Shown piece by piece: positions 1 through 40,254 of a stretch of 64,000 nt of DNA (the stretch's first letter is position 1; each line of letters starts with the position of its first letter). This stretch comes from Aurelia coerulea. Lineage: Eukaryota; Cnidaria; Scyphozoa; Semaeostomeae; Ulmaridae. Made by a program: the position numbers and the translations under genes. The stretch spans positions 7,826,501-7,890,500 of the forward strand of contig CM076960.1 of the NCBI GenBank assembly GCA_039566865.1, read 5' to 3'. The notes beneath the pieces are model-generated. The model made no database searches. It was not told the origin of the DNA and saw only the letters and a program-made list of their open reading frames with translations.

Positions 1-747
1 AAGCCAAAGAAAATACCAATGTCTATAGTAATGTATCCGAGAATGGTTGCTGCAGCACTAATATACTGCTATAAAAGAAGCTACTGGCAGAACTATAGTT
101 TAAATGCACGATGTGTACAATACCCTTTATAATAAAAATTGTGGCTACTAAAGTACGTTAAACAACACTTTTTGTGATTATATTTTGTTTTCTTTGAGAA
201 AATAAATATTTAATTGATCGATGTTTGTTTATGCCGTAAAGCTAAAATGAGACTAAAGAAAAAACTAAAGTCTATAGTAATTTTTACAAGAATGGTTGAT
301 GCAGCACTAATATAGTGCTATAAAAAAGTTACTGGCAGAACTAAAGTTTTATAGAACGATGAGTGCAAAACTCTTTATAATATAAATTGTAGCTTTAAAG
401 TACGTTAATCCACAATTTTTTGTGTTTATATTTTGTTTTTTTTTCTTTTGAGAAAATAAACATTTAATTAATCGATGTTTGCTTATGCAGTAAAGCTAAA
501 ATGAGACTAAAGAAAAAACTAATGTCTATAGTAATATTTCGAAAAATAGTTGCTGCAGTACTAATATAGTGTTATAAAAGATGTTACTTGCAGAACTAAA
601 GTTTTAAAGAACGATGAGTTCAATACTCTTTAAAATATAAATTGTAGCTATTAAAGTACGTTAATCCACACTTTTTGTGTTTATATTTTGTTTTCTTTGA
701 GAAAATAAACATTTAATTGATCGATGTTTGTTTATGCAGTAAAGCTA
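1..747 (+). repeat. Satellite A array, left segment (about 3 monomers)
   Basis: Three tandem monomers of about 249 bp run off the left edge of the window. Each carries the hallmarks of the family: GCTGCAGC next to the stem AGCACT-AATAT-AGTGCT, then CTATAAAAG, CACTTTTTGTG, GAAAATAAACATTTAATT and ATCGATGTTTGTTTATGCAG. The segment ends at the TA of 'aaagcTA', where the module-bounded block begins. It is nearly base-for-base the same as 12977-13721, including private variants such as 'ttacttgcag', so the two are recent paralogues. No coding potential. Confidence 0.96.
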
Positions 748-956
748 CAATCATGGACAAAATAGTTTGAGACAAGTTCAAACTTTAAGATCTGACTATT
801 GAAGATCCCCCCTCCCCCTTATTCAATGTTGGTGACGTGTCGAGGGAGGTTCTCCGATTTTTCAACATTGATTGTGGGGGAACGGGGGGAGAGGATGCTG
901 AAAAGTTCAACATATCAGAGAAAGTTAATTTGTCTTATAATTAATGTCCATGATTG
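748..956. repeat. Palindromic module copy 1 (MITE-like, left terminus of block)
   Basis: A 209 bp imperfect foldback. The ends are CAATCATGGAC and GTCCATGATTG, exact reverse complements. The similarity continues inward (GTTTGAGACAA against TTGTCTTATAA), and the centre has C-rich and G-rich tracts (CCCCCCTCCCCC and GGGGGAACGGGGGG) flanking ATTCAATGTTG and CAACATTGATT. A single strand could fold into one long hairpin. This copy directly abuts satellite A. Confidence 0.88.
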
Positions 957-1806
957 TCTGAAAAATGTTCATACTTAGCCAAATGTCAAAAGAACTTAAG
1001 CAAAATTTTTGCCCTGCTCGCAGTGCAGGTTTTATTCGTACCATATTATCAATATGAATGGCAATGCTCAGTACTTATTTCCGAGATGACAACAACAACA
1101 ACAACAACAAAAACAATAACATGGTAGATTATCTCTGTTAACATGAGATAAGAATTAAGCACGAGTCCTTTATCTTGCATCATATAAGATTGCGCTCATC
1201 AAATTAAATGAAGAACTCCTTTGGTAACATGCTAACATGTTACCATACATGATACCCACATGTTACTACAGTTTTCTATGCTTCAATTCGTGATATCGAC
1301 ATGTTACTACATGTTTCCATCATTTGTAAAAAAAGAGACATATATATTTTTATAAATGATGGTAACATGTGGTAACATGTTGGGAAAGAGCTATTTGTGG
1401 TACTTTTACACAAACTGAAATGGTATCATGTGTGGTATCATGTGGTAACATGTGGTAACATGTGGTAACATATGCTTAATGCATAACTCTATACGGTGTG
1501 TAATGCAAAATGTGTTCTATCAAATGTTCCACCATGGTTCCACGACCTGAACGTTGATCAGTGAGTGTGCACATCATGCTTTCTCTATCATCTAAAGCTT
1601 AGCTAAGTTAACTTTCAGAAAATGTGAGAAAAAGAGCCAAACAAGGGCCTAAATTTCTTAATTGAGGCAGCCTGGTTTTGAAAAAATATTCAGTAGTTTT
1701 GTCCAAGATTTTCTGAAAGCTAGAAATACTTTGTAAATCACGATAGTTCTTCAGGAAAATGTTTGGCTTCCTCTTCAGGTGGGGTATTTTGTATTTTTCA
1801 TTTGGA
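957..1806. repeat. Spacer 1 of the 1060 bp unit
   Basis: 850 bp, intact and non-coding. In order it holds a (CAA)7 tract at 1090-1110, a region dense in ACATGTTAC and its complement, a hairpin with 27 bp arms (1299-1325 and 1354-1380) around an AT-rich loop, direct repeats of GGTAACATGT/GGTATCATGT near 1420-1470, and a conserved 3' part running into module copy 2. A 106-codon minus-strand frame crosses from here into the next module, but I do not call it a gene. Confidence 0.85.
1299..1380. repeat. Hairpin with 27 bp arms in spacer 1
   Basis: Left arm 1299-1325 (ACATGTTACTACATGTTTCC...) pairs with right arm 1354-1380 across a 28 bp AT-rich loop containing TATATATA. The same structure occurs in every spacer and is the site of two later insertions. 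Confidence 0.85.
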
Positions 1807-2017
1807 CAATCATGGACAAAATAGTTTGAGACAAATTCAAACTTTAAGATCTGACTATTGAAGATCCCCCCCTCCCCCTTATTCAATGTTGGTGACGTGT
1901 CGAGGGAGGTTCTCCGATTTTTCAACATTGATTGTGGGGGGAACGGGGGGAGAGGATGCTGAAAAGTTCAACATATCAGAGAAAGTTAATTTGTCTCATA
2001 ATTTATGTCCATGATTG
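1807..2017. repeat. Palindromic module copy 2
   Basis: 211 bp, near-identical to copy 1. It is flanked internally by 'gga' and 'tct' rather than TA, so the GA/TC extension lengthens the inverted repeat and there is no sign of an independent insertion at each copy. The copies therefore multiplied with the spacer as one tandem unit. Confidence 0.86.
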
Positions 2018-2435
2018 TCTGAAAAATGTTCATACTTAGCCAAATGTCAAAAGAACTTAAGCAAAATTTTTGCCCTGCTCGCAGTGCAGGTTTTATTCGT
2101 ACCATATTATCAATATGAATGGCAATGCTCAGTACTTATTTCCGAGATGACAACAACAACAACAACAACAAAAACAATAACATGGTAGATTATCTCTGTT
2201 AACATGAGATAAGAATTAAGCACGAGTCCTTTATCTTGCATCATATAAGATTGCGCTCATCAATTTAAATGAAGAACTCCTTTGGTACCATGCTAACATG
2301 TTACCATACATGATACCCACATGTTACTACAGTTTTCTATGCTTCAATTCGTAATATCGACATGTTACTACATGTTACCATCATTTGTAAAAAAAGAGAC
2401 ATATATATTTTTATAAATGATGGTAACATGTGGTA
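2018..2435. repeat. Spacer 2, left part, interrupted by the LINE
   Basis: Same sequence as spacer 1 up to 'ggtaacatgtggta'. The hairpin left arm is at 2360-2386 and 21 of the 27 bases of the right arm remain (2415-2435). The LINE starts inside that arm. Confidence 0.88.
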
Positions 2436-2436
2436 G

Positions 2437-3606
2437 GATGCCTCTAAGAGTTTTTCCTTCTCGTCGCCCAACCCGAAGGGATGTGGTGACTACGATAGTG
2501 TCGAAAGATCGGATTTTGTCGTGTTTCTGGATCTTGTAAACAAGCTTACTGATGACATCCGGGATTTGAATAAGACTACCAACAGTTTAAGGGAAAAAAA
2601 TGAGCTTTTAGCTCAGGAAAAATTCAGTTTGCTTTTTGAAAATGAAAAACTCAAAGCAACCATGGCCCTGAACCCTCAGCTCAGTTCACCTTCAGTCTTA
2701 TCTCAAGGGGCAGCTCCCAAAGAAATTAAAACAAAAGAAAAGATCATTGAAAAGGTCGTTGATGCTAACAATACTAAGATTGTTTGCGAGAGTATTGAGC
2801 TAGACAATAGCAGTATTATACCAGAAAACAATAAGAGTCACACAAATCGTCCGAGCAAAAAGAAGAGACAAAAGGCAAAGGCTAAACAAAAGGCAAAAAC
2901 CAATGAAGCAACTGCTCAAAATAAACACATTGGCAAACAAGATGAAAATACCGATTCTCCGAAGCTTAGAGAAGCACAGAAACCTAAAACGCCTGAGTCT
3001 GACGAGCAAAGTGCCTTGCGTATTACAGTGGAAAAGAATGAAGCATCTAAATCTCAAAAATCCGGCTCACGTAACGAAAACCAGCAACGAAAAAAGCGAT
3101 CGACTTATATTGTGGGCGATTCTATGGTAAAAGACGTGCAAGGATGGGAGCTCAAGAAGTCTTGTGGTGATGAGAATGAGAATATATTTGTAAAGCCTTT
3201 CTCCGGCTCAACTGTGAAGGACATGAACAGTTATTGCCAGCCCATCATTGAAAGAGCACCCGATCTAATTCTGCTACATGTTGGCACCAATGATTTGGGT
3301 AATAATCAGAAGTCTGACGTCAATATAGCTCAAGATATCATAGACCTCGCTAAACGTATAGAAAGTCATCACATAGACGTTGTCGTGTCCGGCCTCGTGC
3401 CTAGATATGATAGATACGAACCGAAGAGGGTAAGAGTCAATTACATCCTTAGAGATTTATGCTTGGAACATAAATTGAAATATTGTGAACATTCGAACAT
3501 TGACGCTTCTAATCACTTGAACAGAAGTAAGGTCCATCTCAATAAAGCTGGTGTAAGTATTTTTGCAAATAATCTACTTAAGGCCACTAGGCCTACTACC
3601 CAGTGA
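2437..3606 (+). CDS. LINE ORF1 protein, coiled coil plus SGNH (GDSL-like) esterase domain, 5' partial
   Basis: The frame is open from the element's first bases (preceding TAG at 2434-2436) to TGA at 3604, 389 codons, without an initial ATG. The first in-frame ATG is at 2662 in a good context (aaccATGG) and would give 314 aa; the natural start probably lay upstream of the truncation. Visible order: a heptad-like leucine-rich coiled coil (roughly codons 2521-2660), a lysine-rich basic linker with KKKRQKAKAKQKAK (about 2855-2900), then an SGNH hydrolase fold with block I GDS (3115-3123), a downstream GST, GTND (3283-3294) and the C-terminal VHLN (His at 3535). The usual DxxH Asp position is Ser here (SKVH), so esterase activity is uncertain. 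In related LINEs, ORF1 proteins of this type bind nucleic acid, multimerise and associate with membranes or lipids; the exact role is unsettled. It shares its reading frame with ORF2. Confidence 0.9.
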   Translation, partial: DASKSFSFSSPNPKGCGDYDSVERSDFVVFLDLVNKLTDDIRDLNKTTNSLREKNELLAQEKFSLLFENEKLKATMALNPQLSSPSVLSQGAAPKEIKTKEKIIEKVVDANNTKIVCESIELDNSSIIPENNKSHTNRPSKKKRQKAKAKQKAKTNEATAQNKHIGKQDENTDSPKLREAQKPKTPESDEQSALRITVEKNEASKSQKSGSRNENQQRKKRSTYIVGDSMVKDVQGWELKKSCGDENENIFVKPFSGSTVKDMNSYCQPIIERAPDLILLHVGTNDLGNNQKSDVNIAQDIIDLAKRIESHHIDVVVSGLVPRYDRYEPKRVRVNYILRDLCLEHKLKYCEHSNIDASNHLNRSKVHLNKAGVSIFANNLLKATRPTTQ

Positions 3607-3702
3607 CTTCGTAATCACGGTATACATCGTAATTCTAGTGATGCCATTGCCGGGCCCCCGCAGTTAGAAATCACTTCTGATTTGCCCAATGCAAAGGCGC
3701 AA
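3604..3702 (+). other. In-frame UGA junction between ORF1 and ORF2
   Basis: ORF1 ends CAG-TGA-CTT. The following 32 codons (3607-3702) are open in the same frame up to the first ORF2 ATG at 3703, so from 2437 to 6609 the only stop is this single UGA. The context UGA-C, with CUU next, resembles but does not match the leaky UGA-CUA context. It could allow readthrough to an ORF1-ORF2 fusion, or ORF2 could start by reinitiation at 3703. Confidence 0.75.
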
Positions 3703-6612
3703 ATGGAAGGTTCGCCAGCTGGTCTGAGGCTGGGATTTCGAAAGGGCATGGTGATAGCATCACTAAATGTAAATAGTCTGCCCGCCCATCACGAGGAAAT
3801 TAAAATTCTTCTTCATGAAAAAGGGATCCATTTGCTTGCCCTCAATGAAACAAAAGTAGACCCAGACTACCCACGGGAACTTTTAGATATCGAAGGGTAT
3901 CGCTTTGATGGGCTTGACCGCAACCGCCACGGAGGTGGAGTAGGATTCTATATACAAGATAATTTTGTAGTTAACCCTCGTGAAGATATTCCTCTTTCTA
4001 GTTTGGAGTTAAGGTGTGTTGAGGTGAAGCCTATCCGAGCCAAACCCTTCTTTGTAGTTACTTGGTATCGGCCACCCTCGGACCCTGTGGACTCGTTTGA
4101 TAAATTAGAAGCAGTTTTTAGATTCCTCGAGTCTGAGGGCAAGGAGATTATCCTATTGGGAGACACCAACTGTGATGTTGCTCCTGCTAGTGACGTCTCT
4201 TTGTCCTCAGACTTGCCTAATAATACTAAACGCATCCTTGAGTTTTACAACTCGTTTGGCCTGAAGCAGCTTATATCCGAGCCTACTCGTGAGACGACGG
4301 ATACCTCAACTATAATAGATCACATCGCCGTCAGTAACCCCTCGAATGTGGTAGAATCCGGTGTAATTAAATGTTCTATTAGTGATCACAATTTGGTATA
4401 TGTGACGCGAAAATTTCGAGGTTCCGTCAAAGCTAAACACAAGAAGATCAGATCGAGGCAAATGAAAAATTTTGACAAGGATCTTTTTCTCCAAGACCTT
4501 GCGTCGTACGACTGGCTAAGTGTAGTGAATAATGCTGATAGTGTTGACGATGCAGTCAATAAATGGTCTGAACTGGTTTCTCTCGTAATCGAAAAGCATG
4601 CGCCAATCAGAGAACGAAGGGTAACGGAACGCTTTTCTCCTTGGATTACTCCATCCCTGAAACAGCTCTTCAGAACGAGAGATAAACTTAAGGTTAAGGC
4701 AGTAAAAATGAAATCTGAGATACTAATGAGCGCATACAAGCAAGTCCGTTGTAAAGCTAACAATTTGAATCGCAGAATGAAAAGGGAATATTTTTCCAAT
4801 AAGCTAGAATCCTGTGAGGGGGACATAAAGGAAACTTGGAAAACTGTTAATCAGCTGATAAATAAGAGGTCTAAAACCACTAACATCCTCTCTATTAAAG
4901 AGGACGAGAAAGTGATTTCAAATCCGGAAGATATAGCGGAAACCATGAATCACTTTTTTTGCAACATTGGAAAAGATCTCAGTGACAAGATACCGGCTAC
5001 AAAAAATCCTCTTCTTAATGGAGATTTTGGTGATAAAATTGTTTCATCTTCGTTTTCGTTCTCCCCCCTCGACAAGGCGAAAGTTTTCAAAGCTTTTTCG
5101 AAAATCAAAACATCCAATGGGTTTGGTACTGATATGATCTCCAGCTTTTTCTTAAAAACTGGCATTGAAATTTTGGTGCCCTCCCTTGTACTGCTGTTCA
5201 ACTGGTCCCTGTCTGTTGGACGCTTTCCTGACAAATGGAAGACTGCACGAGTTGCGCCTATCTTCAAACAAGGGTCCACTGATAATAAGTCTAATTATAG
5301 ACCGATTTCAGTACTCCCCGTCGTTTCACGTCTGTTTGAAAAATTAGTCTTTGACCAGTTGTATTCCTATTTTAACGACAACAAACTAATATTTTCGGAT
5401 CAGTCAGGTTTTCGATCACTCTATTCAACCCTTACGAGTCTGCTCAGGTGCACGAATGATTGGTACCTTAATATCGATAAGGGTTTATATACGGCAGCTG
5501 TCTATATTGATCTCAAGAAAGCCTTCGACACAGTAGATCACGAGATTCTATTGAGTAAACTCAAATTCTATGGTGTTAAAGGGAAGGAATTTAAATGGTT
5601 TCATTCCTACCTTGCCGACAGGAGGCAATTTTGTAGGGTTAACGGACAAATATCTAGTACCGAGCCTATAAATTGCGGAGTTCCTCAGGGATCCTGTCTT
5701 GGGCCCCTCCTCTTTTTGGTCTACATTAATGATTTACCAAAATGCTTGAAGCATTCCCATGTATCTATGTATGCCGATGATACTAGTATCTATTTTGCAT
5801 CTAATTCCGTTTCTGAGATCAATGACGCTATTAACGCTGATTTAGCTGCTTTGAAATTGTGGCTACAAGGAAACAAGCTATCATTAAATGTTGCAAAAAC
5901 TGAAGGCATGATTATCGGACTCCCAGGTAAACTGAAAAAACTTACTTCACCTGGCTCAGCTAAACCACAGTTTAAAATCGGGGAGGACGATATTAAAATG
6001 GCTGAATATACTAAATACCTAGGAGTTCAAGTAGATCAGCAATTAAAATGGTCTTCCCAATTGGCCTCATTGACAAGTAAGATTTCTAGAGGTATTGGCA
6101 TATTAAGATACTCTAAAAGGTACGTGCCTGCATCCACTGTTAAACAGATGTACAAAAGCCTCGTGGAACCTTACTTTAGATATTGCTGCCCTGTTTGGGG
6201 GAATGTTGGTGAGACCTCTCTTAATAAACTCCAAAAGCTACAAAATCGTGCTGCCAGAATAGTTACCGGCAGTCGATACGACCAGTCAGCCTTGCCACTC
6301 TTTCGTGCCCTAGGATGGCCCACGGTTAGGGAATTGATTGATCTTGAAACACTAAAAATGGTTTTCAAGTCCCTAAACGGTGATGCGCCGTCCTATATGA
6401 GCGACATGTTCAATAGAGTGAACGAAACAACCTCTCGCGTACTGAGGAATTCTAATATAAACCTTAGGACTCCAATGTTAAGAACATCAGCTGGTCAGAG
6501 ATGTTTTTCATTCAGAGGGGCCAGTCTCTGGAATGGGTTGAATGATGAATTAAAAGGAGCACCTACTCTAAAGAAATTCCGGGAAGGGTTGATGAAATCC
6601 CACAAAGCATAA
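3703..6612 (+). CDS. LINE ORF2 polyprotein: AP endonuclease and reverse transcriptase
   Basis: 969 aa from the ATG at 3703; the frame is open further upstream to the UGA at 3604. The N-terminal domain (about residues 16-230) is an exonuclease-endonuclease-phosphatase fold that nicks target DNA: it shows SLNVNSL, the catalytic Glu in LNETK, HGGGVGFYI, TWYRPP, LLGDTN and the terminal SDH near residue 226-228. The reverse transcriptase follows: RPISVLPVVSRLFEKL, QSGFR, motif A YIDLKKAFDTVDH (Asp about 603), motif B CGVPQGSCLGPLLFLVY (about 658), catalytic YADD (690-693), then GNKLSLNVAKTE and YTKYLGV. The C-terminal region has the LQKLQNRAARIVTG and SLWNGLN stretches usual in CR1/L2/jockey-type elements. 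No RNase H or CCHC knuckle is seen. All catalytic motifs are intact, so the protein could be active. It acts on its own RNA in target-primed reverse transcription. Confidence 0.95.
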   Translation: MEGSPAGLRLGFRKGMVIASLNVNSLPAHHEEIKILLHEKGIHLLALNETKVDPDYPRELLDIEGYRFDGLDRNRHGGGVGFYIQDNFVVNPREDIPLSSLELRCVEVKPIRAKPFFVVTWYRPPSDPVDSFDKLEAVFRFLESEGKEIILLGDTNCDVAPASDVSLSSDLPNNTKRILEFYNSFGLKQLISEPTRETTDTSTIIDHIAVSNPSNVVESGVIKCSISDHNLVYVTRKFRGSVKAKHKKIRSRQMKNFDKDLFLQDLASYDWLSVVNNADSVDDAVNKWSELVSLVIEKHAPIRERRVTERFSPWITPSLKQLFRTRDKLKVKAVKMKSEILMSAYKQVRCKANNLNRRMKREYFSNKLESCEGDIKETWKTVNQLINKRSKTTNILSIKEDEKVISNPEDIAETMNHFFCNIGKDLSDKIPATKNPLLNGDFGDKIVSSSFSFSPLDKAKVFKAFSKIKTSNGFGTDMISSFFLKTGIEILVPSLVLLFNWSLSVGRFPDKWKTARVAPIFKQGSTDNKSNYRPISVLPVVSRLFEKLVFDQLYSYFNDNKLIFSDQSGFRSLYSTLTSLLRCTNDWYLNIDKGLYTAAVYIDLKKAFDTVDHEILLSKLKFYGVKGKEFKWFHSYLADRRQFCRVNGQISSTEPINCGVPQGSCLGPLLFLVYINDLPKCLKHSHVSMYADDTSIYFASNSVSEINDAINADLAALKLWLQGNKLSLNVAKTEGMIIGLPGKLKKLTSPGSAKPQFKIGEDDIKMAEYTKYLGVQVDQQLKWSSQLASLTSKISRGIGILRYSKRYVPASTVKQMYKSLVEPYFRYCCPVWGNVGETSLNKLQKLQNRAARIVTGSRYDQSALPLFRALGWPTVRELIDLETLKMVFKSLNGDAPSYMSDMFNRVNETTSRVLRNSNINLRTPMLRTSAGQRCFSFRGASLWNGLNDELKGAPTLKKFREGLMKSHKA

Positions 6613-6790
6613 GTTGAGATGCTTTATGCAATGAACTCTTTCATTTTACTTTTATTGATATTATTTTAATCAGAAATTGTAATCTTAGTTTAGTTTTAGT
6701 ATTTTTATTGCATGGCCCCCTGTAAATCAGTTTTTCTCTAACTGAGGGGCTACCATGCCTAAAAAATTGAAAATGAAATGAAATGAAAAC
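6613..6790 (+). other. LINE 3' UTR and repeat tail
   Basis: 178 bp after the ORF2 TAA. It has an AT-rich stretch, a composite stem-loop (6710-6758), then a tail of TGAAA-type repeats (6768-6789). Short 3' microsatellite tails instead of poly(A) are typical of the CR1/L2 group; the reverse transcriptase of such elements recognises the 3' end structure. The repeat unit sequence resumes at 'atgcaaaatg' (6791). Confidence 0.85.
6710..6758 (+). promoter_or_regulatory. Composite 3' stem-loop of the LINE RNA
   Basis: Nested complementary segments: GCATGG (6710-6715) with CCATGC (6753-6758), CCCC (6716-6719) with GGGG (6746-6749), and TCAGTT (6727-6732) with AACTGA (6740-6745) closing a TTTCTCT loop. 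This is a likely recognition hairpin for the element's own reverse transcriptase; the role is inferred from other LINEs. Confidence 0.7.
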
Positions 6791-7094
6791 ATGCAAAATG
6801 TGTTCTATCAAATGTTCCACCATGGTTCCACGACCTGAACGTTGATCAGTGAGTGTGCACATCATGCTTTCTCTATCATCTAAAGCTTAGCTAAGTTAAC
6901 TTTCAGAAAATGTGAGAAAAAGAGCCAAACAAGGGCCTAAATTTCTTAATTGAGGCAGCCTGGTTTTGAAAAAATATTCAGTAGTTTTGTCCAAGATTTT
7001 CTGAAAGCTAGAAATACTTTGTAAACCACGATAGTTCTTCAGGAAAATGTTTGGCTTCCTCTTCAGGTGGGGTATTTTGTATTTTTCATTTGGA
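6791..7094. repeat. Spacer 2, right part
   Basis: Continuation of the 1060 bp unit after the LINE, from 'atgcaaaatgtgttc' to the start of module copy 3. It aligns with 9879-10182 without a gap. The stretch between the broken hairpin arm and this point (equivalent to about 9751-9878) is absent. Confidence 0.87.
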
Positions 7095-7304
7095 CAATCA
7101 TGGACAAAATAGTTTGAGACAAATTCAAACTTTAAGATCTGACTATTGAAGATCCCCCCTCCCCCTTATTCAATGTTGGTGACGTGTCGAGGGAGGTTCT
7201 CCGATTTTTCAACATTGATTGTGGGGGGAACGGGGGGAGAGGATGCTGAAAAGTTCAACATATCAGAGAAAGTTAATTTGTCTCATAATTTATGTCCATG
7301 ATTG
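7095..7304. repeat. Palindromic module copy 3
   Basis: 210 bp foldback module with the same CAATCATGGAC and GTCCATGATTG ends. The C-tract is one base shorter than in copy 2, which breaks the minus-strand frame seen in other copies. Confidence 0.87.
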
Positions 7305-7692
7305 TCTGAAAAATGTTCATACTTCGCCAAATGTCAAAAGAACTTAAGCAAAATTTTTGCCCTGCTCGCAGTGCAGGTTTTATTCGTACCATATTATCAA
7401 TATGAATGGCAATGCTCAGTACTTATTTCCGAGATGACAACAACAACAACAACAACAAAAACAATAACATTGTAGATTATCTCTGTTAACATGAGATAAG
7501 AATTAAGCACGAGTCCTTTATCTTGCATCATATAAGATTGCGCTCATCAAATTAAATGAAGAACTCCTTTGGTAACATGCTAACATGTTACCATACATGA
7601 TACCCACATGTTACTACAGTTTTCTATGCTTCAATTTGTGATATCGACATGTTACTACATGTTACCATCATTTGTAAAAAAAGAGACATATA
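7305..7692. repeat. Spacer 3, left part, interrupted by TIR element 1
   Basis: Spacer sequence including the (CAA) tract and hairpin left arm (7647-7673). It is interrupted at the TA (7691-7692) in the hairpin loop by TIR element 1. Confidence 0.87.
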
Positions 7693-8658
7693 CCGGGTGT
7701 CCCAAAAAAAAGGTAACAGATTTGATTGGGGCTAGCGAAGAGAATTTAAGTCGAATCAATCCCTGATAAGTTTTGAATTACTCTTAGATAGTTAACTTGA
7801 AGATTGATGCCTTATTTGTTGATATTGGTGCATCACGAGTTGAGATATTAATCTTAAAAGTCCAATTTTGCCTTGTACTCCAAACCAGAGCTTTTGGGGT
7901 TTGGCCTAAGCTGTTAACTCGCTGTGTTGTGGAATCTCCTCAATCATAGCCAAGTACAAACAAGAAACCTCGTGCTTAGAAACACATTTTAGTGGAAATC
8001 TGACTCTGAACTTTACAATCAGATTAAAGAATTTAGCCCCGAAGAGACCAGTTTCTTGATTCTACAAAAACTTCAAATTACACCTGCTTGAGAAAAGTTA
8101 TTCATCAGTGAAATAAGTCCCGTAGGTTTTAACACATAAACTATCTTGCAATCTTCATTGCTTGAATGAAACTTTTTTTGCATCATCTCTCACGAAATTA
8201 TTACGAAACAAGCAATCGTATATGCCCAAGGGAACATAAAAAATGCTCATTCGTGCTTTGCTTGGTGTACTTTTGTAAATGCATTTTGACTGGAGAAAAA
8301 TATTCCTTGGTGACTGTATTCATTAATTTGTTTGTTAGTTTTCAGTTTTTTACATTCTTTTCAAACAGGTACCCCAAGGACAGATCCTTGATCAAAAACG
8401 TCTTTGACTTAGGAGATTCCCCTAACAAGCGCGTTATCAGTTTAGGCCAAAACCCAAAACCTCTGGTTTGCAGATAGACGCAAATTTTGGCTTTCGATAT
8501 TAATATTTCAACTCTTGATGCACCAATATCGACAAACGAGGTATTAATCTTCAAGTTAACTATCGAAGAGTACTTCAAAACGTATTTGGGATCAATTCGA
8601 CTTATACTCTCATCGATATTCCCCATCAAATCTGTTACCTTTTTTTTGGGACACCCGG
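7693..8658. mobile_element. TIR element 1 (966 bp, TA duplication, about 260 bp inverted repeats)
   Basis: Starts CCGGGTGTCCCAAAAAAAAG and ends with its reverse complement, flanked by TA (7691-7692 and 8659-8660). The intact spacers read 'gacatatatattttt' here, so a TA was duplicated. The inverted arms run about 7693-7950 and 8400-8658 and are perfect for about 33 bp, then diverge to roughly four-fifths identity by eye. The interior has no transposase; the frames of about 60-100 codons it contains lie largely in the arms and look like nothing known. Non-autonomous TA-targeting element, presumably moved by a Tc1/mariner-type transposase. Confidence 0.9.
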
Positions 8659-9122
8659 TATATTTTTATAAATGATGGTAACATGTGGTAACATGTTGGG
8701 AAAGAGCTATTTGTGGTACCTTTACACAAACTGAAATGGTATCATGTGTGGTATCATGTGGTAACATGTGGTAATATGTGCTAACATATGCTTAATGCAT
8801 AACTCTATACGGTGTGTAATGCAAAATGTGTTCTATCAAATGTTCCACCATGGTTCCACGACCTGAACGTTGATCAGTGAGTGTGCACATCATGCTTTCT
8901 CTATCATCTAAAGCTTAGCTAAGTTAACTTTCAGAAAATGTGAGAAAAAGAGCCAAACAAGGGCCTAAATTTCTTAATTGAGGCAGCCTGGTTTTGAAAA
9001 AATATTCAGTAGTTTTGTCCAAGATTTTCTGAAAGCTAGAAATACTTTGTAAACCACGATAGTTCTTCAGGAAAATGTTTGGCTTCCTCTTCAGGTGGGG
9101 TATTTTGTATTTTTCATTTGGA
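8659..9122. repeat. Spacer 3, right part
   Basis: Resumes with the duplicated TA, the hairpin right arm (8670-8696), the GGTATCATGTG/GGTAACATGTG repeats and the conserved 3' spacer region. Non-coding. Confidence 0.87.
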
Positions 9123-9332
9123 CAATCATGGACAAAATAGTTTGAGACAAATTCAAACTTTAAGATCTGACTATTGAAGATCCCCCCTTCCCCTTATTCA
9201 ATGTTGGTAACGTGTCGAGGGAGGTTCTCCGATTTTTCAACATTGATTGTGGGGGGAACGGGGGGAGAGGATGCTGAAAAGTTCAACATATCAGAGAAAG
9301 TTAATTTGTCTCATAATTTATGTCCATGATTG
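9123..9332. repeat. Palindromic module copy 4
   Basis: 210 bp. Same termini and G/C tracts as the other copies, with small changes ('ccccttcccc', 'ggtaacgtg'). Confidence 0.87.
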
Positions 9333-10182
9333 TCTGAAAAATGTTCATACTTCGCCAAATGTCAAAAGAACTTAAGCAAAATTTTTGCCCTGCTCGCAGT
9401 GCAGGTTTTATTCGTACCATATTATCAATATGAATGGCAATGCTCAGTACTTATTTCCGAGATGACAACAACAACAACAACAACAAAAACAATAACATGG
9501 TAGATTATCTCTGTTAAGATGAGATAAGAATTAAGCACGAGTCCTTTATCTTGCATCATATAAGATTGCGCTCATCAAATTAAATGAAGAACTCCTTTGG
9601 TAACATGCTAACATGTTACCATACATGATACCCACATGTTACTACAGTTTTCTATGCTTCAATTTGTGATATCGACATGTTACTACATGTTACCATCATT
9701 TGTAAAAAAAGAGACATATATATTTTTATAAATGATGGTAACATGTGGTAACATGTTGGGAAAGAGCTATTTGTGGTACTTTTACACAAACTGAAATGGT
9801 ATCATGTGTGGTATCATGTGGTAACATGTGGTAACATGTGCTAACATATGCTTAATGCATAACTCTATACGGTGTGTAATGCAAAATGTGTTCTATCAAA
9901 TGTTCCACCATGGTTCCACGACCTGAACGTTGATCAGTGAGTGTGCACATCATGCTTTCTCTATCATCTAAAGCTTAGCTAAGTTAACTTTCAGAAAATG
10001 TGAGAAAAAGAGCCAAACAAGGGCCTAAATTTCTTAATTGAGGCAGCCTGGTTTTGAAAAAATATTCAGTAGTTTTGTCCAAGATTTTCTGAAAGCTAGA
10101 AATACTTTGTAAACCACGATAGTTCTCCAGGAAAATGTTTGGCTTCCTCTTCAGGTGGGGTATTTTGTATTTTTCATTTGGA
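9333..10182. repeat. Spacer 4 of the 1060 bp unit, intact
   Basis: 850 bp. Best reference copy of the uninterrupted spacer: (CAA) tract near 9466-9486, hairpin arms 9675-9701 and 9730-9756, ACATGT-rich direct repeats around 9800-9850. Non-coding. Confidence 0.87.
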
Positions 10183-10392
10183 CAATCATGGACAAAATAG
10201 TTTGAGACAAATTCAAACTTTAAGATCTGACTATTGAAGATCCCCCCCTCCCCCTTATTCAATGTTGGTGACGTGTCGAGGGAGGTTCTCCGATTTTTCA
10301 ACATTGATTGTGGGGGGAACGGGGGGAGAGGATGCTGAAAAGTTCAACATATCAGAGAAAGTTAATTTGTCTCATAATTTATGTCCTGATTG
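10183..10392. repeat. Palindromic module copy 5
   Basis: 210 bp. The right terminus has lost one A ('gtcctgattg'). Confidence 0.87.
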
Positions 10393-11242
10393 TCTGAAAA
10401 ATGTTCATACTTCGCCAAATGTCTAAAGAACTTAAGCAAAATTTTTGCCCTGCTAGCAGTGCAGGTTTTATTCGTACCATATTATCAATATGAATGGCAA
10501 TGCTCAGTACTTATTTCCGAGATGACAACAACAACAACAACAACAAAAACAATAACATGGTAGATTATCTCTGTTAAGATGAGATAAGAATTAAGCACGA
10601 GTCCTTTATCTTGCATCATATCAGATTGCGCTCATCAAATTAAATGAAGAACTCCTTTGGTAACATGCTAACATGTTACCATACATGATACCCACATGTT
10701 ACTACAGTTTTCTATGCTTCAATTCGTGATATCGACATGTTACTACATGTTACCATCATTTGTAAAAAAAGAGACATATATATTTTTATAAATGATGGTA
10801 ACATGTGGTAACATGTTGGGAAAGAGCTATTTGTGGTACTTTTACACAAACTGAAATGGTATCATGTGTGGTATCATGTGGTAACATGTGGTAACATGTG
10901 CTAACATATGCTTAATGCATAACTCTATACGGTGTGTAATGCAAAATGTGTTCTATCAAATGTTCCACCATGGTTCCACGACCTGAACGTTGATCAGTGA
11001 GTGTGCACATCATGCTTTCTCTATCATCTAAAGCTTAGCTAAGTTAACTTTCAGAAAATGTGAGAAAAAGAGCCAAACAAGGCCCTAAATTTCTTAATTG
11101 AGGCAGCCTGGTTTTGAAAAAATATTCAGTAGTTTTGTCCAAGATTTTCTGAAAGCTAGAAATACTTTGTAAACCACGATAGTTCTTCAGGAAAATGTTT
11201 GGCTTCCTCTTCAGGTGGGGTATTTTGTATTTTTCATTTGGA
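10393..11242. repeat. Spacer 5 of the 1060 bp unit, intact
   Basis: 850 bp, almost identical to spacer 4. Hairpin arms 10735-10761 and 10790-10816. Confidence 0.87.
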
Positions 11243-11453
11243 CAATCATGGACAAAATAGTTTGAGACAAATTCAAACTTTAAGATCTGACTATTGAAGA
11301 TCCCCCCCTCCCCCTTATTCAATGTTGGTGACGTGTCGAGGGAGGTTCTCCGATTTTTCAACATTGATTGTGGGGGGAATGGGGGGAGAGGATGCTGAAA
11401 AGTTCAAAATATCAGAGAAAGTTAATTTGTCTCATAATTTATGTCCATTATTG
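11243..11453. repeat. Palindromic module copy 6 (right terminus of block)
   Basis: 211 bp. The right end is TGTCCATTATTG, then TA and satellite A. The block therefore ends on a whole module and has no trailing spacer. Confidence 0.87.
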
Positions 11454-14400
11454 TAAAATGACACTAAAGAAAAAACTGAAGTCTATAGTAATTTTTACAA
11501 GAATGGTTGCTGCAGCACTAATATAGTGCTATAAAAAAGTTACTGGCAGAACTAAAGTTTTAAAGAACGATGAGTGCAATACTCTTTATCATATAAATTG
11601 TAGCTATTAAAGTACATTAATCTACAATTTTTGTTTTTATATTTTTTTTTTCTTTAAGAAAATAAACATTTAATTAATCGATGTTTGTTTATGCAGTAAA
11701 GCTAAAATGAGACTAAAGAAAAAACTAATGTCTATATTAATGTTTCCAAGGATAATTGCTGCAGCACTAATATAGTGCTATAAAAGAAGTTACTGGCAGA
11801 ACTATAGTTTTATGGGACAATGAGTGCAATACTCTTAATAATATGAATTGCAGCTACTAAAGTACTTTAATCCACAATTTTTGTGTTTATATTTTGTTTT
11901 CTTTAAGAAAATAAACATTTAATTAATCGATGTTTGTTTATGCAGTGAAGCTAAAATGAGACTAAAGAAAAAACTAATGTCTATAGTAATGTTTCGATAA
12001 ATAGTTGCTACAGTACTAATATAGTACTATAAAAGAAGTTACTGGCAGAACTATAGTTTTAAAGGACGATGAGTGCAATACTCTTAATAATATGAATTGT
12101 AGCTACTAAAGTACGTTAATCCACACTTTTTGTGTTTATATTTTGTTTTCTTTGAGAAAATAAACATTTAATTAATCGATGTTTGTTTATGCAGTAAAGC
12201 TAAAATTAAAGCTAGAATGAGACTAAAGAAAATACCAATGTCTATAGTAATGTATCCGAGAATGGTTGCTGCAGCACTAATATACTGCTATAAAAGAAGC
12301 TACTGGCAGAACTATAGTTTAAATGCACGATGTGTACAATACCCTTTATAATAAAAATTGTGGCTACTAAAGTACGTTAAACAACACTTTTTTTGAATAT
12401 GTTTTGTTTTCTTTGAGAAAAAAAATATTTAATTGATCGATGTTTGTTTATGCCGTAAAGCTAAAATGAGACTAAAGAAAAAACTAAAGTCTATAGTAAT
12501 TTTTACAAGAATGGTTGATGCAGCACTAATATAGTGCTATAAAAAAAGTTACTGGCAGAACTAAAGTTTTATAGAACGATGAGTGCAAAACTCTTTATAA
12601 TATAAATTGTAGCTATTAAAGTACGTTAATCCACAATTTTTGTGTTTATATTTTGTTTTTTTTTTTGAGAAAATAAACATACGCTTAATCGATGTTTGTT
12701 TGTGCAGTAAAGCTAAAATGAGACTAAAGAAAAAACTAATGTCTATATTAATGATTCCAAGAATGGTTGCTGCAGCACTAATATAGTACTATAAAAGAAG
12801 TTACGGGCAGAACTATAGTTTTAAAGGACGATGAGTGCAATACTCTTAATAATATGAATTGTAGCTACTTAAGTACGTTAATCCACACTTTTTGTGTTTA
12901 TATTTTGTTTTCTTTGAGAAAATAAACATTTAATTAATCGATGTTTGTTTAGGCAGTAAAGCTAAAATTAAAGCTAAAGCCAAAGAAAATACCAATGTCT
13001 ATAGTAATGTATCCGAGAATGATTGCTGCAGCACTAATATACTGCTATAAAAGAAGCTACTGGCAGAACTATAGTTTAAATGCACGATGTGTACAATACC
13101 CTTTATAATAAAAATTGTGGCTACTAAAGTACGTTAAACAACACTTTTTGTGATTATATTTTGTTTTCTTTGAGAAAGTAAATATTTAATTGATCGATGT
13201 TTGTTTATGCCTTAAAGCTAAAATGAGACTAAAGAAAAAACTAAAGTCTATAGTAATTTTTACAAGAATGGTTGATGCAGCACTAATATAGTGCTATAAA
13301 AAAAGTTACTGGCAGAACTAAAGTTTTATAGAACGATGAGTGCAAAACTCTTTATAATATAAATTGTAGCTATTTAAGTACGTTAATCCACAATTTTTGT
13401 GTTTACATTTTGTTTTTTTCTTTGAGAAAATAAACATTTAATTAATCGATGTTTGCTTATGCAGTAAAGCTAAAATGAGACTAAAGAAAAAACTAATGTC
13501 TATAGTAATATTTCGAAAAATAGTTGCTGCAGTACTAATATAGTGTTATAAAAGATGTTACTTGCAGAACTAAAGTTTTAAAGGACGATGAGTTCAATAC
13601 TCTTTATAATATAAATTGTAGCTATTAAAGTACGTTAATCAACACTTTTTGTGTTTATATTTTGTTTTCTTTGAGAAAATAAACATTTAATTGATCGATG
13701 TTTGTTTATGCAGTAAAGCTAAAATGACACTAAAGAAAAAACTAAAGTCTATAGTAATTTTTACAAGAATGGTTGCTGCAGCACTAATATAGTGCTATAA
13801 AAAAGTTACTGGCAGAACTAAAGTTTTAAAGAACGATGAATGCAATACTCTTTATCATATAAATTGTAGCTATTAAAGTACATTAATCTACAATTTTTGT
13901 GTTTATATTTTGTTTTCTTTAAGAAAATAAACATTTAATTAATCGATGTTTGTTTATGCATTGAAGCTAAAATGAGACTAAAGAAAAAACTAATGTCTAT
14001 AGTAATGTTTCGAAAAATAGTTGCTACAGTACTAATATAGTGTTATAAAAGATGTTACTGGCAGAACTAAAGTTTTAAAGGACGATGAGTTCAATACTCT
14101 TTATAATATAAATTGTAGCCATTAAAGTACGTTAATCCACAATTTTTGTGTTTATACTTTGTTTTCTTTAAGAAAATAAACATTTAATTAATCGATGTTT
14201 GTTTATGCAGTGAAGCTAAAATGAGACTAAAGAAAAAACTAATGTCTATAGTAATGTTTCGATAAATAGTTGCTACAGTACTAATATAGTGTTATAAAAG
14301 ATGTTACTGGCAGAACTAAAGTTTTAAAGGACGATGAGTTCAATACTCTTTATAATATAAATTGTAGCCATTAAAGTACGTTAATCCACAATTTTTGTGT

Positions 14401-34600: not shown

Positions 34601-37600
34601 TATAATATAAATTGTAACTATTAAAGTACGTTAAACAACACTTTTTGTGTTTATATTTTGTTTTCTTTGAGAAAATAAACATTTAATTAATCGATGTTTG
34701 TTTATGCAGTAAAGCTAAAATGAGACTAAAGAAAAAACTAATGTCTATAGTAATGTTTCCAAGAATAGTTGCTGCAGCACTAATATAGTGCTATAAAAGA
34801 AGTTAATGTTAGAACTATAGTTTTAATGGACGATGAGTGCAATACTCTTAATAATATGAATTGTGGCTACTAAAGTACGTTAAACAACACTTTTTGTGTT
34901 TATATTTTGTTTTCTTTGAGAAAATAAACATTTAATTGATCGATGTTTGTTTATGCAGTAAAGCTAAAATGAGACTAAAGAAAAAACTAATGTCTATAGT
35001 AATGTTTCGAAAAATAGTTGCTGCAGCACTAATATAGTGTTATAAAAGATGTTACTGGCAGAACTAAAGTTTTAAAGGACGATGAGTGCAATACTCTTTA
35101 TAATATAAATTGTAGCTATTAAAGTACGTTAATCCACACTTTTTGTGTTTATATTTTGTTTTCTTTGAGAAAATAAACATTTAATTAATCGATGTTTGTT
35201 TATGCAGTAAAGCTAAAATGAGACTAAAGAAAAAACTAATGTCTATAGTAATGTTTCCAAGAATAGTTGCTGCAGCACTAATATAGTGCTATAAAAGAAG
35301 TTACTGGCAGAACTATAGTTTTATGGGACGATGAGTGCAATACTCTTGAACGATGATAATATAAATTGTAGCTACTAAAGTACGTTAATCAACACTTTTT
35401 GTGTTTATATTTTGTTTTCTTTGAGAAAATAAACATTTAATTAATCGATGTTTGTTTATGCAGTAAAGCTTAAATGAGACTAAAGAAAAAACTAATGTCT
35501 ATATTAATGTTTCCAAGAATGGTTGCTGCAGCACTAATATAGTGCTATAAAAGAAGTTACTGGCAGAACTATAGTTTTATGGGACGATGAGTGCAATACT
35601 CTTAATAATATGAATTGCAGCTACTAAAGTACGTTAATCCACACTTTTTGTGTTTATATTTTGTTTTCTTTGAGAAAATAAACATTTAATTAATCGATGT
35701 TTGTTTATGCAGTAAAGCTAAAATTAAAGCTAAAACTAAAGAAAATACCAATGTCTATAGTAATGTTTCCGAGAATGGTTGCTGCAGCACTAATATAGTG
35801 CTATAAAAGAAGTTACTGGCAGAACTATAGTTTAAATGGACGATGAGTGCAATACCCTTTATAATATAAATTGTGGCTACTAAAGTACGTTAAACAACAC
35901 TTTTTGTGTTTATATTTTGTTTTCTTTGAGAAAATAAACATTTAATTGATCGATGTTTGTTTATGCAGTGAAGCTAAAATGAGACTAAAGAAAAAACTAA
36001 TGTCTATAGTAATGTTTCGAAAAATAGTTGCTGCAGCACTAATATAGTGTTATAAAAGATGTTACTGGCAGAACTAAAGTTTTAAAGGACGATGAGTGCA
36101 ATACTCTTTATAATATAAATTGTAGCTATTAAAGTACGTTAATCAACACTTTTTGTGTTTATATTTTGTTTTCTTTGAGAAAATAAACATTTGCTTAATC
36201 GATGTTTGTTTATGCAGTAAAGCTAAAATGAGACTAAAGAATAAACTAAAGTCTATAGTAATTTTTACAAGAATGGTTGATGCAGCACTAATATAGTGCT
36301 ATAAAAGAAGTTACTGGCAGAACTATAGTTTTATGGGAACGATGAGTGCAATACTCTTAATAATATGAATTGCAGCTACTAAAGTACGTTAATCCACACT
36401 TTTTGTGTTTATATTTTGTTTTCTTTGAGAAAATAAACATTTAATTAATCGATGTTTGTTTATGCAGTAAAGCTAAAATTAAAGCTAAAACTAAAGAAAA
36501 TACCAATGTCTATAGTAATGTTTCCGAGAATGGTTGCTGCAGCACTAATATAGTGCTATAAAAGAAGTTACTGGCAGAACTATAGTTTAAATGGACGATG
36601 AGTGCAATACCCTTTATAATATAAATTGTGGCTACAAAAGTACGTTAAACAACACTTTTTGTGATTATATTTTGTTTTCTTTGAGAAAATAAACATTTAA
36701 TTGATCGATGTTTGTTTATGCAGTAAAGCTAAAATGAGACTAAAGAAAAAACTAAAGTCTATAGTAATTTTTACAAGAATGGTTGCTGCAGCACTAATAT
36801 AGTGCTATAAAAAAGTTACTGGCAGAACTAAAGTTTTAAAGAACGATGAGTGCAATACTCTTTATAATATAAATTGTAGCTATTAAAGTACGTTAATCAA
36901 CACTTTTTGTGTTTATATTTTGTTTTCTTTGAGAAAATAAACATTTAATTAATCGATGTTTGTTTATGCAGTAAAGCTAAAATGAGACTAAAGAAAAAAC
37001 TAATGTCTATAGTAATATTTCGAAAAATAGTTGATGCAGTACTAATATTGAGTGTTACTAATAAAGATGTTACTGGCAGAACTAACGTTTTAAAGGACGA
37101 TGAGTTCAATACTCTTTATAATATAAATTGTAGCTATTAAAGTACGTTAATCAACACTTTTTGTGTTTATATTTTGTTTTCTTTGAGAAAATAAACATTT
37201 AATTGATCGATGTTTGTTTAAGCAGTAAAGCTAAAATGAGACTAAAAAAAAACTAATGTCTATATTAATGTTTCCAAGAATGGTTGCTGCAGCACTAATA
37301 TAGTGCTATAAAAGAAGTTACTGGCAGAACTATAGTTTTATGGGACGATGAGTGCAATACTCTTAATAATATGAATTGTAGCTACTAAAGTACGTTAATC
37401 CACACTTTTTGTGTTTATATTTTGTTTTCTTTGAGAAAATAAACATTTGCTTAATCGATGTTTGTTTATGCAGTAAAGCTAAAATGAGACTAAAGAAAAA
37501 ACTAATGTCTATATTAATGTTTCCAAGAATGGTTGCTGCAGCACTAATATAGTGCTATAAAAGAAGTTACTGGCAGAACTATAGTTTTATGGGACGATGA

Positions 37601-40254
37601 GTGCAATACTCTTAATAATATGAATTGTAGCTACTAAAGTACGTTAATCCACACTTTTTGTGTTTATATTTTGTTTTCTTTGAGAAAATAAACATTTAAT
37701 TAATCGATGTTTGTTTATGCAGTAAAGCTAAAATTAAAGCTAAAACTAAAGAAAATACCAATGTCTATAGTAATGTTTCCGAGAATGGTTGCTGCAGCAC
37801 TAATATAGTGCTATAAAAGAAGTTACTGGCAGAACTAAAGTTTTAAAGGACGATGAGTGCAATACCCTTTATAATATGAATTGTGGCTACTAAAGTACGT
37901 TAATCCACACTTTTTGTGTTTATATTTTGTTTTCTTTGAGAAAATAAACATTTAATTAATCGATGTTTGTTTATGCAGTAAAGCTAAAATGAGACTAAAA
38001 AAAAACTAATGTCTATAGTAATGTTTCCAAGAATGGTTGCTGCAGCACTAATATAGTGCTATAAAAGAAGTTACTGGCAGAACTATAATTTAAATGGACG
38101 ATGAGTGCAATACTCTTTATAATATAAATTGTGGCTACTAAAGTACGTTAATCAACACTTTTTGTGTTTATATTTTGTTTTCTTTAAAGAAAATAAACAT
38201 TTAATTAATCGATGTTTGTTTATGCAGTAAAGCTAAAATGAGACTAAAGAAAAAACTAATGTCTATATTAATGTTTCCAAGAATGGTTGCTGCAGCACTA
38301 ATATAGTGCTATAAAAGAAGTTACTGGCAGAACTATAGTTTTAAAGGACGATGAGTGCAATACTCTTAATAATATGAATTGTAGCTACTAAAGTACGTTA
38401 ATCAACACTTTTTGTGTTTATATTTTGCTTTCTTTGAGAAAATAAACATTTAATTGATCGATGTTTGTTTATGCAGTAAAGCTAAAATGAGACTAAAGAA
38501 AAAACTAATGTCTATAGTAATGTTTCGAAAAATAGTTGCTGCAGCACTAATATAGTGCTATAAAAGAGGTTACTGGCAGAACTATAGTTTTATGGGACGA
38601 TGAGTGCAATACTCTTAATAATATGAATTGTAGCTACTAAAGTACGTTAATCCACACTTTTTGTGTTTATATTTTGTTTTCTTTGAGAAAATAAACATTT
38701 AATTAATCGATGTTTGTTTATGCAGTAAAGCTAATTAAAGCTAAAACTAAAGAAAAAACCAATGTCTATAGTAATGTTTCCAAGAATGGTTGCTGCAGCA
38801 TTAATATAGTGCTATAAAAGAAGTTACTGGCAGAACTATAGTTTAAATGGACGATGAGTGCAATACCCTTTATAATATAAATGTGGCTACTAAAGTACGT
38901 TAAACAACACTTTTTGTGATTATATTTTGTTTTCTTTGAGAAAATAAACATTTAATTGATCGATGTTTGTTTAAGCAGTAAAGCTAAAATGAGACTAAAG
39001 AAAAAACTAATGTCTATAGTAATTTTTACAAAAATGGTTAATGCAGCACTAATATAGTGCTATAAAAAAAGTTACTGGTAGAACTAAAGTTTTAAAGGAC
39101 GATGAGTGAATACTCTTTAGAATATGAATTGTAGCTATTAAAGTAGTTTAATATACGCTTTTCGTGTTTATATTTTGTTCTCTTTGAGAAAATAAACATT
39201 TAATTAATCGAAGTTTGTTTATGCAGTAAAGCTAAAATGAGACAAAAGAAAAAACTAATGTCTATAGTAATGTTTCGAAAAATAGTTGCTGCAGTACTAA
39301 TATAGTGTTATAAAAGATGTTACTGGCAGAACTAAAAATTAAAGGACGATGAGTTCAATACTCTTTATAATATAAATTGTAGCTATTAAAGTACGTTAAT
39401 CAACACTTTTTGTGTTTATATTTTGTTTTCTTTGAGAAAATAAACATTTAATTGATCGATGTTTGTTTATGCAGTAAAGCTAAAATGAGACTAAAGAAAA
39501 AACTAATGTCTATAGTAATTTTTACAAGAATGGTTGCTGCAGCACTAATATAGTGCTATAAAAGAAGTTACTGGCAGAACTAAAGTTTTAAAGAACGATG
39601 AGTGCAATACTCTTTATAATATAAATTGTAGCTATAAAGTACGTTAATCCACAATTTTTGTGTTTATATTTTGTTTTCTTTGAGAAAATAAACATTTAAT
39701 TAATCGATGTTTGTTTATGCAGTGAAGCTAAAATGAGACTAAAGAAAAAACTAATGTCTATAGTAATGTTTCGAAAAATAGTTGCTGCAGTACTAATATA
39801 GTGTTATAAAAGATGTTACTGGCAGAACTAAAGTTTTAAAGGACGATGAGTGCAATACTCTTTATAATATAAATTGTAGCTATTAAAGTACGTTAATCAA
39901 CACTTTTTGTGTTTATATTTTGTTTTCTTTGAGAAAATAAACATTTAATTGATCGATGTTTGTTTATGCAGTAAAGCTAAAATGAGACTAAAGAAAAAAC
40001 TAATGTCTATAGTAATGTTTCCAAGAATGGTTGCTGCAGCACTAATATAGTGCTATAAAAGAAGTTACTGGCAGAACTATAGTTTTATGGGACGATGAGT
40101 GCAATACTCTTAATAATATGAATTGTAGCTACTAAAGTACGTTAATCCACACTTTTTGTGTTTATATTTTGTTTTCTTTAAGGAAATAAACATTTAATTA
40201 ATCGATGTTTGTTTATGCAGTGAAGCTAAAATGAGACTAAAGAAAAAACTAATG

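Follow-up and report, generated by a model that had tools for sequence, protein, structure and literature searches.

A TA-bounded tandem block in the genome of Aurelia coerulea as the probable single insertion of a composite-like DNA transposon that grew in place

The 64,000-bp stretch of Aurelia coerulea DNA analysed here (contig CM076960.1, positions 7,826,501 to 7,890,500 of assembly GCA_039566865.1; hereafter the window) contains at 748-11453 a tandem block of 10,706 bp, in which six copies of a palindromic module, M (209-211 bp), alternate with five spacers, S, each about 850 bp long. Very likely, this block goes back to the single insertion of a paired-end, composite-like DNA transposon, which has grown in place between fixed, TA-bounded ends. 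Its structure, M-(S-M)x5, was established from the sequence and an alignment of the modules, whose copies are 96-100% identical to copy 1. The palindrome of M is imperfect along its length, with perfect 12-bp terminal inverted repeats (TIRs), CAATCATGGACA...TGTCCATGATTG. An earlier note on this DNA had described a single TA-flanked insertion of this form, with an empty site at 13720 and internal modules devoid of TA; both statements were confirmed, all four internal modules reading ...GGA-CAATC... on the left and ...GATTG-TCTG... on the right. The two interruptions of the spacers are later insertions, by a long interspersed nuclear element (LINE) and a foldback element. The parts of the block are as follows.

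746..747, no strand: left TA of the target-site duplication, present as one TA at the empty site (from the sequence)
748..11453, plus strand: whole insertion, M-(S-M)x5
748..956, plus strand: M copy 1, left edge, palindromic, with the 12-bp perfect terminal inverted repeats
957..1806, plus strand: S copy 1, 850 bp
1807..2017, plus strand: M copy 2, internal, in the context GGA-M-TCTG
2018..7094, plus strand: S copy 2, split by the LINE at about 2436-6790
7095..7304, plus strand: M copy 3, internal
7305..9122, plus strand: S copy 3, split by the TA-flanked foldback element at about 7693-8658
9123..9332, plus strand: M copy 4, internal
9333..10182, plus strand: S copy 4
10183..10392, plus strand: M copy 5, internal
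10393..11242, plus strand: S copy 5
11243..11453, plus strand: M copy 6, right edge
11454..11455, no strand: right TA of the target-site duplication (from the sequence)
13720..13721, no strand: TA of the empty counterpart of this satellite site; the 100 bases spanning the junction differ at 1 position

When the flanks of the block were joined on one TA, the resulting 100-base piece differed from 13672-13771 at one position only, this being its top ungapped match in the window between 11.5 and 63.8 kb (runner-up at 36682, with 2 mismatches). Over 2.2 kb of joined flank the same site came second (92.2%) to 36493-38720 (92.6%), because the 249-bp satellite within which the block sits is full of similar units. 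The match to an empty site with one TA identifies the duplication as TA. A second copy of the block, together with the satellite around it, lies 55,877 bp upstream (G000:C18:7770624 onward against the window from position 1), at 99.97% identity over the first 6.8 kb and 99.34% over the next 12 kb, with a gradual fade by about 45 kb; this may be a recent large satellite duplication or, in part, a false duplication of the assembly. A stretch of the satellite at 52393-53770 lies in the opposite orientation, with its GC skew reversed.

The 574 Mb of the genome (294 contigs) were searched, and 35 fetched pieces were annotated together with a 50-kb stretch of one contig, C15 (contigs and fetched places are given by our labels, C and L). 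The best 39-40 of 93, 121 and 296 candidates were scored in the respective searches, and copy numbers are thus lower bounds. At least 19 loci carry the spacer, the window being included and its upstream duplicate left out: 12 have kept both module ends, six are truncated or rearranged and one has lost an edge module. TA stands on both sides of all 12 two-ended loci, in which the number of units, n, is 1, 2, 4, 5, 7 or 13; the longest, on C15, was recognised through the second genome search. The loci are listed below, the first 12 with TA on both sides.

Window: n = 5, TA on both sides
L009: n = 7, TA on both sides
L010: n = 2, TA on both sides
L011: n = 4, TA on both sides
L012: n = 2, middle module gone, TA on both sides
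L013: n = 1, TA on both sides
L014: n = 1, first C of the left module mutated, TA on both sides
L016: derivative of n = 2 with the middle module gone and a further deletion, TA on both sides
L017: n = 1, interrupted, TA on both sides
L019: n = 1, interrupted, TA on both sides
L020: deletion derivative of n = 1, TA on both sides
C15:9804229-9827116: n = 13, first spacer split by an 8.9-kb insert, TA on both sides
L015: left edge module lost by apparent excision
L018, L021, L022, L023, L024 and L026: truncated or rearranged

Outside the window these ends are thus seen again at 11 further two-ended loci, spread over 10 further contigs, and they can be explained without a local join in the assembly. 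TA followed by the module terminus has 131 occurrences genome-wide, compared with 4 for the reversed control; given this excess and the TA on both sides of all 12 two-ended loci, the TA boundaries of the block are not a matter of chance. Beside the TA, C was found in 21 and G in 22 of 25 elements, giving the target consensus CTAG. Among the incomplete loci, L021 is a spacer fragment without a module, and no continuation was found in 5-10 kb of added flank at L024, L023 and L021, nor at the stretch L050.

Modules also occur without any spacer. Fourteen lone copies were read, all with TA on the right and 12 with TA on the left; the two lacking the left TA have one flank in common and three others share another flank, the 14 copies representing about 11 distinct sites by flank. 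Being short and non-coding, with TIRs and a target-site duplication (TSD) at many sites, lone M has the properties of a miniature inverted-repeat transposable element (MITE). Such copies may have moved by themselves or been left behind by recombination of composites. At L068 (C11:14548700-14549340), two modules lie head to tail without a spacer (427 bp), with TA on both sides. The earlier note had suggested a search for TA-flanked copies with differing numbers of spacers, and copies with 0, 1, 2, 4, 5, 7 and 13 were found; free arrays ending at random phases, which it had named as the contrary outcome, are not the usual form of the M family, 12 of the 19 spacer loci keeping both ends.

Module loss has left short scars. 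Where a module is missing between spacers, the junction reads GGA-CAG-TCTG or nearly so (L012, L016, L018 and L021); in L015, which lacks its left edge module, it reads TA-CTG-TCTG. The consensus footprints of Sleeping Beauty are TACAGTA and TACTGTA (PMC4378557). The CAG or CTG scars at the five loci fit those expected of a Tc1/mariner element, that of L015 alone adjoining TA. On our reading, a 2-nt staggered cut in ends of the form CA...TG, combined with an A:A mismatch, would likewise leave a CAG or a CTG. To judge by these scars, the enzyme can apparently use both ends of a single module as well as the outermost ends of an array.

Growth after insertion was examined with a tree of 37 spacers, in which bootstrap support was not fully settled. 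The spacers of the window, L009, L010, L011 and C15, which are all the multi-unit arrays with intact modules, each group by locus (support 100/98, 95/92, 96/93, 100/97 and 98/94, respectively), and from this clustering it is concluded that the arrays grew after insertion. Mean spacer identity is 99.0-99.97% within the five arrays versus 98.0% between loci (549 pairs), and the six modules of the window have substitutions in common which are absent from the other four arrays. The C15 array offers a closer view of the process. Its left-edge and right-edge modules differ at seven alignment columns, and all 12 internal modules resemble the right edge at columns 15 and 67 (the latter within a C run) and the left edge at columns 102, 119, 140 and 219; at column 204 the left edge stands alone. 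Such a chimera is expected in a one-unit founder if the right module of one copy crosses over with the left module of another, and a circle produced by recombination of the founder's two modules would carry it too; the pattern points to exchange between the modules of a one-unit founder. The internal modules of L010 (one marker) and L011 (two markers) are compatible with chimeras. Tandem arrays that expand and homogenise locally, of which up to 13 units were read, have the character of a satellite. These observations support the proposal of the earlier note that a TIR transposon with foldback modules as ends has expanded in its interior.

A sister family was encountered among the places with TA and the module terminus, of which the first 100 of 131, by contig up to C15, were listed and eight then read. 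Two of the eight (L070 and L072) carry a module of 217-219 bp, M2, with 214 of 217 aligned bases alike between them. As at the left edge of an M array, TA precedes the module and TCTG follows it. The best local match between the start of the M2 spacer and S spans 22 bases, a figure for which no control was run. With M2 and 304 bp of its spacer as the query, 296 candidates were obtained, and the best 40, which were scored, fell largely into periodic series. The pattern of TA plus the M2 right end (up to 2 mismatches) gave 206 matches against 0 for the control; 100 of these were listed, the 21 exact ones first, and the statements on series below refer to the matches listed. M2 arrays were deduced from match positions and periodicity, bases having been read at two left edges (L070 and L072): an exact match was taken as a TA-flanked end, and periodic one-mismatch matches as internal GA/TC junctions, as read in L072. 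Ten periodic series were recognised. Seven of them have an exact TA right end, which is always the outermost match of the series, and in six of the seven the left end has an exact TA as well; the seven are given here.

C3: 14 internal matches over 46.8 kb (the longest), unit about 3,228 bp with two irregular steps, exact TA at both ends
C4: 5 internal, exact TA at both ends
C9 near 16.78 Mb: 3 internal, exact TA at both ends
C13, first series: 2 internal, one irregular step of 8.7 kb, exact TA at both ends
C13, second series: 3 internal, exact TA at both ends
C11: 2 internal, exact TA at both ends
C1: 4 internal, exact TA at the right, no exact left end

Regular steps measure 3,213-3,236 or 4,497-4,509 bp, corresponding to units of about 3.2 or 4.5 kb, and one M2 copy on C17 fits a single unit. 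The unit of about 4,505 bp may be the autonomous form, or that closest to autonomy, and may code for the enzyme. A third palindromic module with the same terminus, 258 bp in length, lies alone and TA-flanked at L071 (C1:16517550-16518250). Divergent pairs of module termini 37-46 kb apart were noted among the matches listed (C5:15471428/15509868, C5:18791180/18831067, C8:8733790/8770767 and C3:20385256/20431232). The modules of the three places read (L065, L066 and L067) lie in one common 60-bp flank, as would fit a giant inverted-repeat element with a module inside its ends; a giant transposon bounded by the module termini themselves was dropped for the places read.

A mechanism may be proposed on these grounds. 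Since M carries a TIR at each of its own ends, a transposase could pair any left end with any right end and so mobilise a lone M, M-S-M or a longer stretch. The form inserted at TA, with a preference for CTAG, would have been M-S-M. The directly repeated modules would then recombine out of register, by unequal sister or allelic exchange and possibly via M-S circles, each event adding whole M-S units inside the fixed TA-bounded ends, until n = 5 was reached in the window. Lone modules would move by themselves, some perhaps being remnants of recombination, and the context GA-M-TC, lacking TA, would lower the separate excision of internal modules and keep the array together. The enzyme would probably be of the Tc1/mariner type, whose TA target-site duplication is the one found here.

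Several observations weigh against this account. Two separate insertions would have left TA at the internal junctions, which instead read GA-M-TC; two MITE insertions flanking S were accordingly set aside as the direct origin of the composite. No transposase reading frame was seen in the old long spacers of L017 and L018 or in L044, the frames having been judged by eye and without a profile search; those of L044 are LINE-like. The ranges of spacer identity overlap, reaching 99.41% between loci and falling to 98.49% within the window, the two spacers of L012 are 97.3% alike and do not group in the tree, and the edge modules of the window differ without a chimera pattern; gene conversion could also homogenise arrays. 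The terminus at L014 has lost its first C, and only about 40 bp upstream of the L018 scar are recognisable as a spacer end. Among the M2 matches listed, an exact TA right end is absent from three series, those on C9 near 8.07-8.09 Mb, C14 and C22; an exact TA left end is likewise absent from the C9 (8.07-8.09 Mb) and C14 series (C22 lies beyond the left-end listing) and from the C1 series, C1 having been listed whole. The ends of the three series may be mutated, truncated or free, and our confidence was lowered slightly on their account, both in growth from a single insertion and in the wider proposal on the lineage given below.

Growth in place may be set against three other origins for the arrays. 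The earlier note had offered, as its alternative, the insertion of an already tandem or circular molecule, here taken as a ready-made M-S multimer entering each locus in one step. The likeness of units within an array would follow from this, and a circle M-S formed by recombination would carry the same chimeric module as C15. Against it, copies with these ends commonly contain a single unit or none, the arrays group by locus, and the C15 edges differ from each other and from the inside, as exchange in a one-unit founder predicts; a circle would in addition need to open exactly at the outer ends of modules. Such a molecule is not needed, fits worse than expansion in place and is improbable as the inserted form; circles can still serve as a route of later growth. 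S might otherwise have been the original tandem satellite, with a natural S-CAG-S junction that M invaded later as a MITE, a notion prompted by the S-CAG-S junctions of four loci, two of them with diverged spacers. Yet no S-only array was seen among the matches listed in the genome search, all 12 two-ended loci end on M with TA, M sits in GGA-M-TCTG and not in a duplicated TA, both CAG and CTG are found, as in an excision footprint, and the M-TCTG junction is also present in two M2 loci with a different spacer; we give this order of events scarcely any credence. An assembly artefact or an ordinary free satellite array has the least to commend it: the block does lie in a 249-bp satellite, the near-identical copy that lies 55,877 bp upstream of it may in part reflect false duplication, and three M2 series lack an exact TA right end among the matches listed, but the same ends with TA recur at the 11 other two-ended loci on 10 other contigs, and six of the 10 M2 series listed have exact TA at both ends.

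The closest known kind is KolobokP, which encodes a DDD/E transposase plus a His-Me nuclease (Kojima and Bao 2022, Mob DNA 13:24, PMC9587614). Its direct repeats, themselves TIR elements, flank an internal region and also occur solo, (LTDR-INT)n-LTDR multimers (LTDR, long terminal direct repeat; INT, internal region) carry TSDs at their extremes, and internal regions abut where a repeat has been lost, unequal exchange being proposed (PMC9587614). Long terminal direct repeats in solo and multimer forms with TSDs are likewise found in the present families (for M2, by positions), and the M2 unit of about 4.5 kb is near the 4.0-4.7 kb of the autonomous Pacific oyster KolobokP. That the block is itself a KolobokP element of the Kolobok superfamily is nevertheless very improbable. 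The TSD is TA (empty site; 25 elements) and not 3-5 bp, the termini are CAATC...GATTG, that is CA..TG, and not 5'-RR...YY-3', and the repeats measure 209, 219 and 258 bp and not about 450 or 660 bp; the KolobokP repeats described carry TIRs of 11-18 bp, whereas the module here is palindromic over its 209-258 bp. KolobokP excision, as described, deleted 1-5 flanking bp, whereas the scars here keep their flanks intact and add CAG or CTG. The present family differs further in that its TA duplication lies at CTAG and that chimeric modules are seen in one array. No second KolobokP-like lineage was found in the titles and abstract openings of the open papers that the literature searches matched, subscription papers and Repbase lying outside those searches.

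Other systems share single features. The terminus of Sleeping Beauty is CAGT; that of the present family is CAATC, and four of the five scars here lie between GA and TC, not beside TA. The likeness to Sleeping Beauty and mariner excision lies in the TA target and the CAG or CTG footprint (PMC4378557, PMC2642840). Tetris/DAIBAM of Drosophila virilis is described as a foldback element with TIRs, which has its ends in common with a MITE and supplies units for satellite arrays; its repeats of about 220 bp lie inside each TIR, whereas here the repeat is module plus spacer and the module is the end (PMC4079207). The Tc1/mariner MITE miDNA4 and the MITE Xstir of Xenopus also contain tandem repeats that vary in copy number, and these lie, as described, within a single pair of ends (PMC12628747), whereas here every unit has a complete pair. 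As for retroelements, a further likeness is offered by the (repeat-internal)n-repeat form of the Cassandra arrays. These reportedly consist of tandem long terminal repeat (LTR) elements sharing an LTR. Cassandra is a retroelement and is not known to carry TIRs of the M kind. The likeness in form is drawn from PMC7215508.

The material inserted in the spacers of the window deserves brief mention. The LINE in spacer copy 2 (about 2436-6790) has two long open frames of 361 and 976 codons; most relatives of its second frame (ORF2) among the matches listed have Pfam domains for reverse transcriptase and endonuclease, and the best of these matches is 93% identical. The foldback element (about 7693-8658) has the ends CCGGGTGTCCCA with TA on both flanks, and similar ends occur after a cut-short spacer in L024 (near 1118) and beside a module in L066. 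The spacer has a degenerate foldback of its own (for example, window 1226-1536), in which ACATGTTACC-type repeats flank a TATATA centre; the foldback element is inserted close by. No TIRs were detected at the spacer's own ends (score 16; shuffled median 14, 95% point 19).

Finished arrays are the usual basis for inferring how a transposon becomes a satellite. The present genome contains a whole series, from the lone module through the one-unit insertion to arrays of 2, 4, 5, 7 and 13 units, which apparently expanded separately, and the chimeric modules of C15 record the exchange that started that array. This is one way for transposons to seed new satellite DNA. A further suggestion from the finding is that lineages other than KolobokP can share the paired-end architecture described there. 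Tentatively, and with less than even confidence, the families may represent a second eukaryotic composite-like lineage, of the TA-target group and independent of KolobokP, in which the context GA-M-TC licences the outermost ends only, the M2 unit of about 4,505 bp (spacer about 4.3 kb) would be autonomous and the 1,060-bp family a miniature derivative. Should such licensing, which is similarly doubtful, prove true, a unit could grow to tens of kilobases and still be a single mobile element.

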